Assembly: GCA_025362795.1 (NCBI GenBank)
Contig: JANYFE010000062.1
Coordinates: forward strand, 52,797-116,796
Reading direction: 5' to 3'
Source: Rhodobacterales bacterium
Lineage (GTDB): Bacteria > Pseudomonadota > Alphaproteobacteria > Rhodobacterales > Rhodobacteraceae
DNA: 64,000 nucleotides
Position 1 is the first letter of the stretch. Every line of letters begins with the position of its first letter. Shown here piece by piece: positions 28,344-50,257 of this stretch. The notes under the pieces are model-generated. The model was not told the DNA's origin, did not search any database, and worked only from the letters and a program-made list of their open reading frames with translations. The position numbers and the translations under genes were made by a program.

Positions 28344-29165
28344 ATGTTTCAGTCCACCAGCCCCCGTTCCAACGTTGGCAGCCTGCTATCGACGCTGGAA
28401 CTCATCTTCCACGTCGCCGTGCGCGACATCCGCAAATCGCATGGCAATGCGATCATCGGCCTGCTGATCAGCATCGTGCAATCGCTGATTATGGTGCTGG
28501 TGTTCTGGTTCATGTTTACCGTCCTGAAAATGCGCGGGTCGGCAGTGCGCGGCGATTTCATGCTGTACACGATGTCCGGCATCTTCATGTACATGACCCA
28601 TATCCGCACCATCAAAGCCGTGTCCAAGGCCGAAGGGCCGACCTCCTCCATGATGAAACACGCGCCGATGAATACCATCGTCGCCATCGCCGGGCAGGCT
28701 CTGGCGGCGTTGTATCAACAAGTGCTGGCAATCGTGGTGATCCTGTTTTTCTACAACACGATGTTCAACCGTGTGGTGATCGAACAGCCGATCCCGGCCT
28801 TTGGCATGCTGCTGCTGGCCTGGGGGTCGGGGGTCGGTGTCGGCATGGTGTTCAAGGCTGCAACGCCCTGGGCCCCTGACTTCTTCGGCATCCTGACCTC
28901 TGTCTACACCCGCGCCAACATGATCGCATCCGGCAAGATGTTTCTGGCCAATGGCATGCGCACGTCACTGCTCGCCTGGTTCACCTGGAACCCGCTGTTC
29001 CACATCATCGACCAGTCGCGCGGCTACGTCTTTCTGAACTACCATCCGCATTATTCCAACCTGACTTACCCGATTGTCGCCACCTTCGTGCTGATCATCA
29101 TCGGCCTGATGGGCGACACTTTCACCCGCCACTACGCTTCCGCCAGCTGGAGCGCGGGGAAATAG
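28344..29165 (+). CDS. ABC-2 type polysaccharide export permease (KpsM-like)
   Basis: Six-TM pattern, 'IFHVAVRDIRKSHGNAIIGLLISIVQSLIMVLVFWFMF', 'WNPLFHIIDQSRGYVFLNYHPHYSNLTYPI' typical of capsule/LPS ABC-2 permeases; start at MFQSTSP. Confidence 0.82.
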   Translation: MFQSTSPRSNVGSLLSTLELIFHVAVRDIRKSHGNAIIGLLISIVQSLIMVLVFWFMFTVLKMRGSAVRGDFMLYTMSGIFMYMTHIRTIKAVSKAEGPTSSMMKHAPMNTIVAIAGQALAALYQQVLAIVVILFFYNTMFNRVVIEQPIPAFGMLLLAWGSGVGVGMVFKAATPWAPDFFGILTSVYTRANMIASGKMFLANGMRTSLLAWFTWNPLFHIIDQSRGYVFLNYHPHYSNLTYPIVATFVLIIIGLMGDTFTRHYASASWSAGK

Positions 29166-33142: not shown

Positions 33143-33267
33143 TACCCGTTCCTCCGCCCTGACAGACCTCCTCGCTCCCCCGGCAACAAGGGCCCGCAAG
33201 CGAGCGCGGCGCCTTTGCCTGCCGTCCCACCGCACGCCCTGTTAATCCCGGCCCGCCTTCCCCGTGT

Positions 33268-33386
33268 AGAGACGCGGGCAAGACGCTTTCAAGACGCCGT
33301 CAAGACAGTAAAAAACCCAACATTTGCTGCCGTTAACCATGATTTTCCCGCTGATTCGCTGCGGGTTTCACAAAGCGGTTAACCAT
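33268..33386. promoter_or_regulatory. Composite element A: 11-bp-phased CAAGAC/GTCTTG array plus two TTAACCAT boxes upstream of radC
   Basis: agagac 33268, CAAGAC at 33279, 33290 and 33301 (11-bp spacing); TTAACCAT at 33333-33340 and 33379-33386. Paralogous architecture at 50034-50165. Confidence 0.6.
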
Positions 33387-33417
33387 TCCTTCACCACAGT
33401 CATGCAAGCCTGCCCGC

Positions 33418-34185
33418 ATGGCAAAGCCCGGTTTCCACGAATCTTCCCTGCCGCTTTTCGCCCCCGACCAGGACGAGGACGAGGCTGCCTTTGCGCTCCT
33501 GCCCGAAAAACTGCCGTCCTATATCGCAGACCACCGCAAACGCCTGCGATCGCGTTTCACCGAAGGCGGCGCAACCGCGATGCCCGACTACGAACTCCTT
33601 GAACTGGTCCTGTTTCGGGCGATTCCGCGCCAGGACGTCAAACCTCTGGCGCGTCTCTTGCTCGACACATTCGGCGATTTCAACCGCGTGATTTCTGCCG
33701 TCCCTGCCAGGTTGCTGATGGTCAAGGGCGTCGGCGAAGCCGTTGTTCTGGAACTGAAAATTATCGAGGCTTCGGCCCAACGCCTGATGCGAGCCAAGGT
33801 GCTGCACCGGCCGATCCTGACCTCCTGGGACGCGCTGGTCGACTACTGTCACACCGCGATGGCCCACCGCGAAACCGAACAATTCCGCATCCTGTTTCTC
33901 GACCGCAAAAACGTCCTGATCGCCGATGAAGAACAGGCCAAAGGCACCGTAGACCACGTCCCGGTCTACCCGCGCGAAGTCGTGAAACGCGCCTTGGAAC
34001 TGAACGCCAGCGCGTTGATTCTGGTGCACAATCATCCCTCCGGCGACCCCACACCGTCCGATGCCGACATCGCAATGACCACGCAGGTGCAGGATGCCGC
34101 ACAAGTCCTCGGCATCACCCTGCACGACCACCTGATCATCGGAAAATCCCGCGAACTCAGCTTTCGCGCACAGGGGTATTTGTAG
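33418..34185 (+). CDS. radC: RadC family JAB/MPN-domain protein
   Basis: 'LLELVLFRAIPRQDVKPLARLLL' HhH-like N-terminus and JAMM 'ALILVHNHPSGDPTPSDADIAMT'. Confidence 0.93.
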   Translation: MAKPGFHESSLPLFAPDQDEDEAAFALLPEKLPSYIADHRKRLRSRFTEGGATAMPDYELLELVLFRAIPRQDVKPLARLLLDTFGDFNRVISAVPARLLMVKGVGEAVVLELKIIEASAQRLMRAKVLHRPILTSWDALVDYCHTAMAHRETEQFRILFLDRKNVLIADEEQAKGTVDHVPVYPREVVKRALELNASALILVHNHPSGDPTPSDADIAMTTQVQDAAQVLGITLHDHLIIGKSRELSFRAQGYL

Positions 34186-47946: not shown

Positions 47947-48216
47947 GGACCCTCAAAAACGAAAAAGCGAGCCAACAGGCCCGCCGCGACTTTCGGTAGC
48001 TTCGAGTGTGGACCCCGAAGCAGCTGTTGAAAGCGGTATAGGCCGGAACGGCGGGCGACACAAGACTTCGCCCGGCGGTTGGCGCAGCGCTATTTCGGTC
48101 GTGGACTTTGCGGGATTCGTTGGCAGAGAGTGAACGTCAAGCGAAACTGCTGTTTGCATGTCAAGCGGATGGGATTCGTGCATCCCGAGGCCGCGGGAGA
48201 AGTGATAAACTTCAGG

Positions 48217-48249
48217 TAAGTTATTGATTTAATTAACTTATATCAATAA
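48217..48249. repeat. AT-rich overlapping inverted repeats at 3' end of pip
   Basis: TAAGTTA (48217-48223)/TAACTTA (48234-48240) interleaved with TTATTGAT (48221-48228)/ATCAATAA (48242-48249). Confidence 0.55.
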
Positions 48250-49229
48250 TCAGAACCCGGATCATTGCCAAGCCCGTCCATAACCTCCACCAGCGCTTCT
48301 GAAATTCCGGGCTCCGATAGGGCATGTCCCGCCAGCGGGATAAGCCGCAGGTCGGCTTTGGTCCAGCCCTGCGCCAGTGTCCAGGCCGAGACCGGGGGGC
48401 AGATCATGTCGTAGCGACCTTGAACGATCGTGGCCGGGATATGGGCGAGGCGGTGTTTTTCGCGCAGGATCCAGCCATCGCATTCCAGAAACCCGGCGTT
48501 TTGGAAGTAGTGATTCTCCAGCTTGGAAAATGCCCGGGCATAGTCTGAGGGACTTTCTCCCAGAATCCCCTCAAAAGACACCGAAGCCAGCGCATTCTCC
48601 CAGTTCGCCCATATCCGCCCCAGCCGGGATTCTTCCATCAGGTTTCCGCAAAACAGCCGCCGATGATATGCCACGATCAGGTCGCCCCGCTCTTCTTCCG
48701 GAATCGGTGCCACAAACCGCGCCCATAGATCGGGAAAGAACGCGCCTGCCCCACCTCCGTAAAACCATTTCAACTCGGCCTGAGTCATCAGGAAAACCCC
48801 CCGCAACACCAAATGCCGGGCGCGGGTCGGGTGGGTGATCGCATAAACCAGAGCAAGCGTGGCACCCCATGATCCACCGAACAGGATAAACGCATTGATT
48901 TCCAAAGCTTTTCGGATCGTCTCGATGTCGGCAACCAAGTCCCACGTCGTATTCGCCTCGACCGAAGCGTGCGGGCGAGAACGGCCACAGCCGCGCTGAT
49001 CGAACAGGATGATGCGGTAAACAGCGGGATCAAAATAGCGGCGCATCGCGGGAGAGCAGCCGCCGCCGGGGCCGCCGTGCAACACAAGAACGGGAATTCC
49101 GTTGGGATTGCCACATTGCTCGACGTAAATGCGATGGCCGTGGTCCACGTCAATCATGCGCTGGTCGAATGGGTCGACCGCTGGGTAAAGGTATTCAACT
49201 GCGCGTTTTTGACCTGATCTATGATCCAT
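48243..49229 (-). CDS. pip: Proline iminopeptidase (alpha/beta hydrolase)
   Basis: 'LVLHGGPGGGCSPAMRRYFDPAVYRIILFDQRGCGRSRPHA', 'FGGSWGATLALVYA', 'GRYDMICPPVSAW', 'GHALSEPG'. Confidence 0.95.
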   Translation of the reverse strand: MDHRSGQKRAVEYLYPAVDPFDQRMIDVDHGHRIYVEQCGNPNGIPVLVLHGGPGGGCSPAMRRYFDPAVYRIILFDQRGCGRSRPHASVEANTTWDLVADIETIRKALEINAFILFGGSWGATLALVYAITHPTRARHLVLRGVFLMTQAELKWFYGGGAGAFFPDLWARFVAPIPEEERGDLIVAYHRRLFCGNLMEESRLGRIWANWENALASVSFEGILGESPSDYARAFSKLENHYFQNAGFLECDGWILREKHRLAHIPATIVQGRYDMICPPVSAWTLAQGWTKADLRLIPLAGHALSEPGISEALVEVMDGLGNDPGSDY

Positions 49230-49285
49230 TCGGCTTATATACCGTGCCAGAGGTTATCTGACACTGAAATAGAAGGACGCTGGCC

Positions 49286-50023
49286 ATGCAAACCACGATT
49301 GACCCCGCCGAAGTGGCGAAGTTCGAGGCTATGGCGGCGGAGTGGTGGGATGTGAATGGCAAGTTCAAGCCGCTGCATCTGATGAATCCATGCCGTCTGG
49401 ACTACATCAACAGCCAGATTGCGGCGGAATACAATCGCGATCTGAAGCAGGCTAACCCGTTCAAAGGTTTGCGAATTCTGGACATTGGCTGCGGGGGCGG
49501 GCTGCTGAGCGAACCGATGGCGCGGCTGGGGGCGGAGGTTTTGGGGGCGGATGCGGCGGCGCGGAACATTCCGGTGGCCAAGTTGCATGCCGAGAGTTCC
49601 GGGCTGGTGATCGACTATCGCCACACCACGGCGGAGGATTTGGCGGCGGCGGGGGAGCAGTTCGATGTGGTGTTGAATATGGAGGTGGTGGAGCATGTTT
49701 CGGACCCGCTGGCCTATCTGACCGCCTGCCGGAATCTGCTAAAGCCGCAAGGAGTTATGATTTGCTCAACACTAAATCGGAACGCCAAAAGCTTCCTCAT
49801 GGCGATTATTGGCGCGGAATGGGTGATGCGGTGGCTGCCGAAGGGGACGCATGACTGGGCCAAGTTCATCACGCCTGACGAACTCTATGGGTTGATTGAA
49901 AAGGCGGGTTTAAGCCCGTTGGACCGCAAGGGAATGGTGTTCAACCCGGTCAGCTGGACCTGGTCGCTTTCGGCGCGGGATTTGTCTTGCAACTATGTGA
50001 CCACCTCGGTGCGCGCGGCCTGA
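49286..50023 (+). CDS. ubiG: 3-demethylubiquinone / polyprenyl-dihydroxybenzoate O-methyltransferase
   Basis: '[33 protein letters not shown]', SAM motif '[20 protein letters not shown]', '[15 protein letters not shown]'. Confidence 0.96.
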
Positions 50024-50033
50024 GTGCGCTGGA

Positions 50034-50165
50034 TTAACCATTGAAAATCATTGGATAATCTGGCGTTTCGGCAGAGGGCCGTTTGTCTTCTTTGCGTCTT
50101 GCCCGCGTCTTGAACGCGTCCCCACGCTTTATGGGCGATTTTTGCGGCGCCACGGCGTTAACCAT
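50034..50165. promoter_or_regulatory. Composite element B: 11-bp-phased GTCTTG array flanked by TTAACCAT boxes upstream of DUF4202-like gene
   Basis: TTAACCAT 50034-50041; GTCTTC 50085, GTCTTG 50096, GTCTTG 50107, GTCCCC 50118 (all 11-bp spacing); TTAACCAT 50158-50165. Shares the exact 17-mer GCGTCTTGCCCGCGTCT with element A (reverse complement). Confidence 0.6.
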
Positions 50166-50257
50166 TGGCCCCGAATCGCCGCCGTGCCGGTTGCGCAAGC
50201 CGCCGTCATCGGCAAAGCTGCGTCAGAGGTTTCCGGTCATCGGAAGGAGCGGCAGTC

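Follow-up and report, generated by a model that had tools for sequence, protein, structure and literature searches.

Known strand-polar sequences are mainly single short words (KOPS, Chi and AIMS), and direct repeats with an 11-bp period are typical of regulators of the OmpR/PhoB type, a family with tandem boxes in which CtrA itself binds TTAA-N7-TTAA. KOPS are described as 8-bp sequences (PMC2680272), and AIMS are octamers that are biased as single words and rise toward the terminus (PMC5993296). Among dispersed repeats, BIME-2 serves gyrase and provides a precedent for an architectural role (PMC2817692), and for CtrA both a full site, TTAA-N7-TTAAC, and a half-site, TTAACCAT, have been published (PMC3692519).

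Here we describe an element that touches on each of these systems, of which two copies, with arrays A and B, lie in the window, by which we mean the whole 64-kb stretch of DNA that was analysed. The repeat to which both arrays belong is intergenic, non-coding, lineage-specific and of the DNA level, and we found no description of it in the open-access literature searched.

Elements A and B and the box upstream of radC

An initial annotation of the dnaJ-radC gap had described GTCTTG repeats 11 bp apart and two TTAACCAT boxes as a single architecture upstream of radC, and had noted its recurrence at a second locus. All positions it gave are exact (CAAGAC at 33279, 33290 and 33301, agagac at 33268, TTAACCAT at 33333 and 33379), and the second locus, element B, is real, with GTCTT at 50085, 50096 and 50107 and TTAACCAT at 50034 and 50158. 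The repeated GTCTTG is equally real but reads on the - strand, and agagac, although present, is not a degenerate fourth unit but the normal terminal unit (CGTCTCTACAC) of most copies. Overlooked were TTAAT at 33242 and GATTC at 33353, which together with the TTAACCAT box at 33333 match the frame of other copies and complete it, as well as the species-specific rewording of the array and its link to GC skew. Of the two boxes, the one at 33333 does belong to the repeat frame, but the one at 33379 lies outside it. The features of the window are the following.

33226..33359, array polarity - strand: element A, the whole repeat (TTAA frame and array), in the dnaJ-radC gap
33242..33246, + strand: TTAAT box of the element A frame, at the same offset as in other copies
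33263..33273, - strand: terminal unit of array A, GTCTCTACACG, formerly the degenerate fourth unit
33274..33284, - strand: array A unit 3, GTCTTGCCCGC
33285..33295, - strand: array A unit 2, GTCTTGAAAGC
33296..33306, - strand: array A unit 1, GTCTTGACGGC
33333..33340, + strand: TTAACCAT box of the element A frame, the repeat's own and not that of radC
33353..33357, + strand: GATTC (GANTC) of the element A frame, at the GANTC offset that recurs in part of the copies
33379..33396, + strand: separate CtrA-type box of radC, TTAACCATTCCTTCACCA, TTAA-N7-TTCA, kept upstream of radC in relatives
33418..34185, + strand: radC coding sequence (open reading frame, 255 aa), with orthologues 76-91% identical at full-length matches
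48000..49500: GC-skew switch, cumulative minimum near 48.96 kb, separating array A from array B
50026..50178, array polarity + strand: element B, the whole repeat, directly behind the stop codon of a ubiG-like gene, with TTAACCAT at 50034 and 50158 and GAATC at 50173
50085..50128, + strand: array B, GTCTTCTTTGC GTCTTGCCCGC GTCTTGAACGC and terminal GTCCCCACGCT

Within the window, GTCTTG-N5-GTCTTG with up to two mismatches occurs 12 times, compared with 4.0 ± 1.8 in shuffled sequences, none of which reached 12, and TTAACCAT occurs four times compared with 0.55, a count reached by one shuffle in 100. Positions 28907-29060 of the window (- strand) match the Rfam family RF02645, Ruegeria cis2 sRNA, at 56.7 bits.

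In relatives it is the box, and not the array, that stays with radC. TTAAC stands shortly before radC in 13 of 13 relatives with a readable upstream region, array-free ones included, and the box there is TTAACnnTTnnTnnACCA or near it. Its counterpart at 33379 includes the CtrA half-site and differs from the full site by a single base; the CtrA-like box proposed upstream of radC holds up, array or none, and from its sequence we infer a putative CtrA site. The array was expected to be aligned upstream of orthologous radC genes and to be more frequent than in a control. The first expectation fails as far as radC is concerned, since even a degenerate array stands upstream of radC only in G002 and G008 among the 13 readable relatives, and a role of the array in radC control is not supported.

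The idea that the array and CtrA act together as an operator of radC, and of the gene at the second locus, has in its favour the 11-bp direct repeats, the published CtrA half-site TTAACCAT (PMC3692519) and the listing of radC in R. capsulatus with the competence genes that matter for the capability to act as a GTA recipient (PMC10218006). Against it, most relatives keep the box at 33379 but lack an array upstream of radC, and the genes next to the roughly 55 copies are unrelated and often convergent; the idea is already largely refuted and we regard it as highly improbable. In G012 (L079) the dnaJ-radC gap carries, where the window's own genome has element A, another short tandem array made of three to four 13-bp units (GCCTGACCGGAAG).

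The repeat family in its own genome and in relatives

The second expectation holds, with a frequency far above control. In the window's own 3.84-Mb assembly (G000), the pattern GTCTTGN5GTCTTGN5GTCTT with one mismatch allowed has 78 matches, and the reversed-pattern control has none, which supports a recurrent DNA element with several sites in helical phase. These matches collapse to 55 sites, about one per 70 kb, and mostly consist of three 11-bp CGTCTT-N5 units followed by a variable terminal unit, which reads GTCT[C/A]TACG or GTGAAGAC, with GTCTCTACG and GTCTCTACA types after most arrays. Most arrays lie within a frame of about 135-160 bp, with TTAA boxes at fixed offsets (-30 from the array start, then +61 or +72, in many copies) and often a GANTC, whose offset recurs in some of the copies. 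TTAA stands at the fixed offsets in 52, 60 and 47 of 63 copies; the frame is absent from about 20 copies, and it surrounds the array in either orientation. A de novo scan of 1.5 Mb for triple 6-mers gave 28 at period 11, 13 at period 8 and one at period 10.

All but one of the G000 arrays are intergenic. The 49 gaps with two readable neighbours comprise 21 convergent, 21 tandem and 7 divergent ones, and the corresponding figures in a second genome, G009, are 20:25:6, with convergent gaps above the window background in both (Fisher p 0.025 and 0.046, respectively). A common function was looked for among the neighbours in G000 and none was recognised. Within tandem gaps the array is sense to the genes in 8 cases and antisense in 13 (G000; 13 and 12 in G009), and this bears on an RNA-level signal, namely a terminator, a Rho-loading (rut) site or a small RNA. 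Several arrays do stand only a few bases behind stop codons, copies in G002 and G008 end in a hairpin, and the YC dinucleotides at 11-nt spacing are reminiscent of rut sites. However, a rut site lies on the same strand as the upstream transcript, while the arrays are about equally sense and antisense (8:13 and 13:12); fold z-scores are near 0 on both strands and no Rfam family was found at the arrays, so we give an RNA-level signal very little credence.

The cores are far more constant than the spacers. When GTCTT-N6-GTCTT-N6-GTCTT was searched in G000 with up to two mismatches allowed, 55 separate arrays were perfect at 15/15 core bases, only two more, independent ones had one mismatch, and two-mismatch matches (27 in all) were not above control. 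Each unit holds about 2 bits at positions 1-5 and 1.8 at position 11, compared with about 0.4 at positions 7-9. The spacers draw on about 11 frequent words that are strongly linked (mutual information 3.45, compared with 0.31 in shuffles) and form 53 different three-word combinations at 55 sites, so that the arrays are not copies of one master. Perfect cores beside varying spacers point to selection on the cores, since a fresh transposition burst would have copied the spacers as well and slow decay would have hit the cores. We take the cores to be held by selection, although units may instead have been copied from one locus to another; selection on cores in its simple form leaves the small set of spacer words unaccounted for.

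Only two of 60 relatives, the same-genus MAGs G002 and G008, have the GTCTTG array commonly, and G010 has one match. A cultured bacterium, Fuscovulum blasticum DSM 2131, also carries a GTCTTG array. In 12 of 15 other same-genus species there is at most one match of the GTCTTG type, and most of these have no CCTAC matches, so that the form, as far as these two words are concerned, is dispensable at the level of the genus. In G009 the array word is CCTACA (CCTACA-N5 x3), and CCTAC-N6-CCTAC-N6-CCTAC has 124 matches against 2 in the control; the repeat there is about 160 bp long, has sharp borders and 48 copies, and is laid out as CCAAGCCCTTGAGAACGC-n-GCGTTAAT..TTAACG..array..GCGTTAACCAT..GCGAATCGG. 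The G010 word is of the GTCTTC type (GTCTTCCTTCC), and other genera have a similar frame with GTCTGGCATCC, GTCGGACTTCC, AGGAACAGGCC or a 12-bp GTATG unit. In G321 (L272) the frame holds a 12-bp instead of an 11-bp array (GTATGTCTGAAC x3).

Some positions are shared under different words. At the ubiG junction, the place of element B, there are GTCTT arrays in G000, G002 and G008, a CCTAC array in G009 and a decayed CCTAC copy in G011. By tblastx of the flanks about 16 of the 55 G000 loci pair with G009 array loci, and at about ten of these the alignment shows that the arrays share a gap, where their polarity mostly agrees and their word differs. In four species, GTGAAGAC or ATGAAGAC closes the copy between gltD and gltB. 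Between G002 and G008 orthologues the cores, TTAAC and GAATC are kept while the intervening sequence changes, a comparison biased by pairs that were found via the core; many arrays of these two genomes (L057-L075) end in a long hairpin of the CCTTCCGTCTCTACGCGCGGAGAGACGGAAGG type that G000 and G009 copies lack. Other positions are empty. For some copies of G009 the corresponding gap in G007, G011 or G000 is empty and spans just 9-58 bp, compared with about 380 bp between the flanks in G009 at L133 and L147; the flanks of empty and filled gaps are too diverged to give the base-exact joints at which a target-site duplication would show. With gaps empty in some species and shared in others, copies have been gained and lost, yet some positions persist under a changed word.

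Phage and plasmid origins were considered and rejected, as the array with its terminal unit gives no matches in viral contigs, the six viral matches of the looser GTCTTG pattern turned out to be tandem repeats of an unrelated kind, and no plasmid matched a consensus made by hand from the G002/G008-type element. Phased arrays of other kinds were seen elsewhere. Viral contigs (L373-L492, e.g., L394, L417 and L468) carry CCTACA-N5 arrays with an 11-bp period, with at least 120 matches on many unrelated contigs, most of the matches listed coming from one phage family with CCTACACTATCCCTACAAAAACCCTACA; the GTCTTG pattern has only six matches there. The viral CCTACA-N5 arrays are possibly another type of phased operator. 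Dispersed 11-bp arrays of GTCTTGTGCCC and GTCTTGTAGCC occur at several loci per genome in Thermoflexus (L190, L196, L197 and L201), there inside a long inverted repeat, and in Bacteroidales (L198, L213, L219, L233 and L239).

Strand polarity and what the arrays may be for

When GC skew was taken from 1.4 kb on each side, leaving out the element itself, the array strand (GTCTTG or CCTAC) was the G-rich strand at 52/55 sites in G000 (p 2e-12), 62/67 in G009 (p 1e-13), 18/18 in G002 and G008 together and 7/7 in G010. In 395 kb of G010 examined later, 8/8 arrays, two of them new, lie on the G-rich strand, and most single copies in other genera agree. Within the window, array A is on the - strand where the + strand is C-rich and array B on the + strand where the + strand is G-rich; site A, to the left of the skew switch near 48.96 kb, points left and site B points right. 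From GC skew we infer that the G-rich strand is the leading strand. The contigs of these draft genomes change skew more frequently than a single origin and terminus would permit, so that inversions, the presence of several replicons or some other process must play a part.

This polarity is not an effect of transcription, because third-codon skew in 574 genes follows the surroundings (r 0.79) and not the gene strand (r 0.07), making skew a property of the domain, and the arrays are neutral to gene strand. Nor is it an artefact of composition, because CGTCTT alone, outside arrays, is strand-unbiased (94:109) and the CCTACA word opposes the composition of its strand. Where the frame is flipped in G000, polarity goes with the array. 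A KOPS-like word, GGGCAGGG (65:22), was considered as independent support for the strand and dropped, since a G-rich word follows GC skew trivially.

Of ten skew minima (-/+ switches) in 1.52 Mb, eight lie within about 3 kb of an array that points away from the minimum, and none of five maxima does, in a count that takes in the window minimum at about 48,960 and G000 contigs C86, C46, C39, C10, C76, C70 and C15 and is biased by contigs partly chosen for array pairs; a fair second set is small, with 3 of 10 arrays compared with 0.44 expected. One of two skew minima in G010 has an array at 3.5 kb.

With slightly more doubt than conviction, we lean toward a strand-polar docking array for a cooperative DNA-binding protein, reworded from species to species, whose direction relative to replication is selected and whose frame is tied to the cell cycle. 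A putative sequence-specific protein would bind one unit per helical turn, with three to four copies aligning cooperatively on one face of the DNA to form a directional complex. Sites would be kept as their direction relative to replication matters, be it for segregation, translocase guidance or the handling of forks or repair, and the cores of one species would change together because they follow their putative protein. The TTAA/GANTC frame may tie the site to the CtrA/CcrM cell-cycle machinery, and radC would be a mere neighbour of the array, with its own CtrA-type box at 33379.

The main rival, which we doubt but take seriously, is a non-autonomous mobile repeat, MITE-like or travelling as single-stranded DNA, with insertion biased to one strand of the fork and the array bound by a transposase, so that polarity would record the mode of insertion. 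IS200/IS605 elements insert into the lagging-strand template (PMC6006769), and a repeat of this kind would explain both the polarity and the patchiness in the family; the intergenic position of the copies, their sharp borders and their presence or absence at orthologous gaps (9-58 bp compared with about 380 bp at L133 and L147) are consistent with it. It is harder to reconcile with cores that are undecayed while spacers vary (53/55 word combinations differ) and with an array and frame found in either relative orientation. Moreover, the borders have no inverted terminal repeat of the MITE type, those in G009, CCAAGCCCTTGAGAACGC and TGCGAATCGG, not being inverted copies, a Y1 transposase (PF01797) is above cut-off in 0/16 same-genus genomes, and the number of positions common to G000 and G009 seems higher than expected by chance.

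An architectural site with no dedicated reader, where 11-bp phasing bends or wraps DNA for gyrase, IHF/HU or similar, would fit the phasing itself, the indifference to gene strand and the preference for convergent over divergent gaps (21:7 in G000, 20:6 in G009). We nevertheless consider it quite unlikely, since strong polarity is unexpected of a wrap site and a bending signal would not need cores that are constant throughout a species and differ as a whole block from one species to the next.

The docking array would have wider meaning as a new chromosome-orienting code, in which a phased directional array is linked to CtrA/CcrM and the word of a putative reader drifts between sister species and takes all 50-100 sites along, a claim that we hold to be rather unlikely. 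If true, this would be a bacterial 'dialect' system, each species having its own array word. A core that is perfect within a species, while a sister species has another word at some of these loci, would offer a natural experiment in the co-evolution of a protein and its set of sites, and the 44-bp array DNA would be a simple bait for the putative reader protein. The locus also cautions against local-operator readings, as a textbook-looking region beside a competence-related gene is mostly a genome-wide repeat.

Comparison with known systems

REP, BIME and REPIN sequences are, like the arrays, high-copy, extragenic and species-specific families, and the approximately 55 intergenic arrays are within their range of tens to hundreds of copies. 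However, the arrays have no GTAG-footed palindrome as a common unit and no RAYT-type transposase. Instead of a palindromic hairpin unit there are fold z-scores near 0, with a terminal hairpin only in G002/G008 copies, and a search for the RAYT transposase (Y1_Tnp, PF01797) gave nothing above cut-off in the 16 genomes and one sub-threshold match in G008.

Operator boxes of the OmpR/PhoB type share with the arrays direct repeats one helical turn (11 bp) apart and, as we would expect of the arrays, cooperative binding on one face. They differ in that the arrays are not a promoter-linked regulon and change words between sister species; rather than standing upstream of regulated promoters, the arrays are enriched in convergent gaps, with divergent gaps at 7/49. 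As for CtrA sites, the published sequence (PMC3692519) is matched by the boxes of the frame and by that of radC; the latter, at 33379, does so by way of the half-site TTAACCAT rather than TTAA-N7-TTAAC, and may be bound accordingly. Unlike CtrA sites, the frame boxes stand on either side of an array, some 30 bp ahead of it and 17-28 bp behind it, and are found also in gaps with no promoter-like gene arrangement.

In logic the arrays come closest to KOPS and AIMS. KOPS are short motifs along the leading strand of both arms that are read directionally, and the arrays follow what skew suggests is the leading strand at 52/55, 62/67, 18/18 and 8/8 sites. Where KOPS is an 8-bp G-rich motif (GGGNAGGG type), the arrays are CGTCTT-N5 x3 or CCTACA-N5 x3, with three to four units at an 11-bp phase inside a composite frame and with different words in sister species. 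AIMS share the preference for the leading strand, but their words are strand-biased wherever present, whereas CGTCTT alone is not (94:109). The array is KOPS/AIMS-like in its logic but is a member of neither class.
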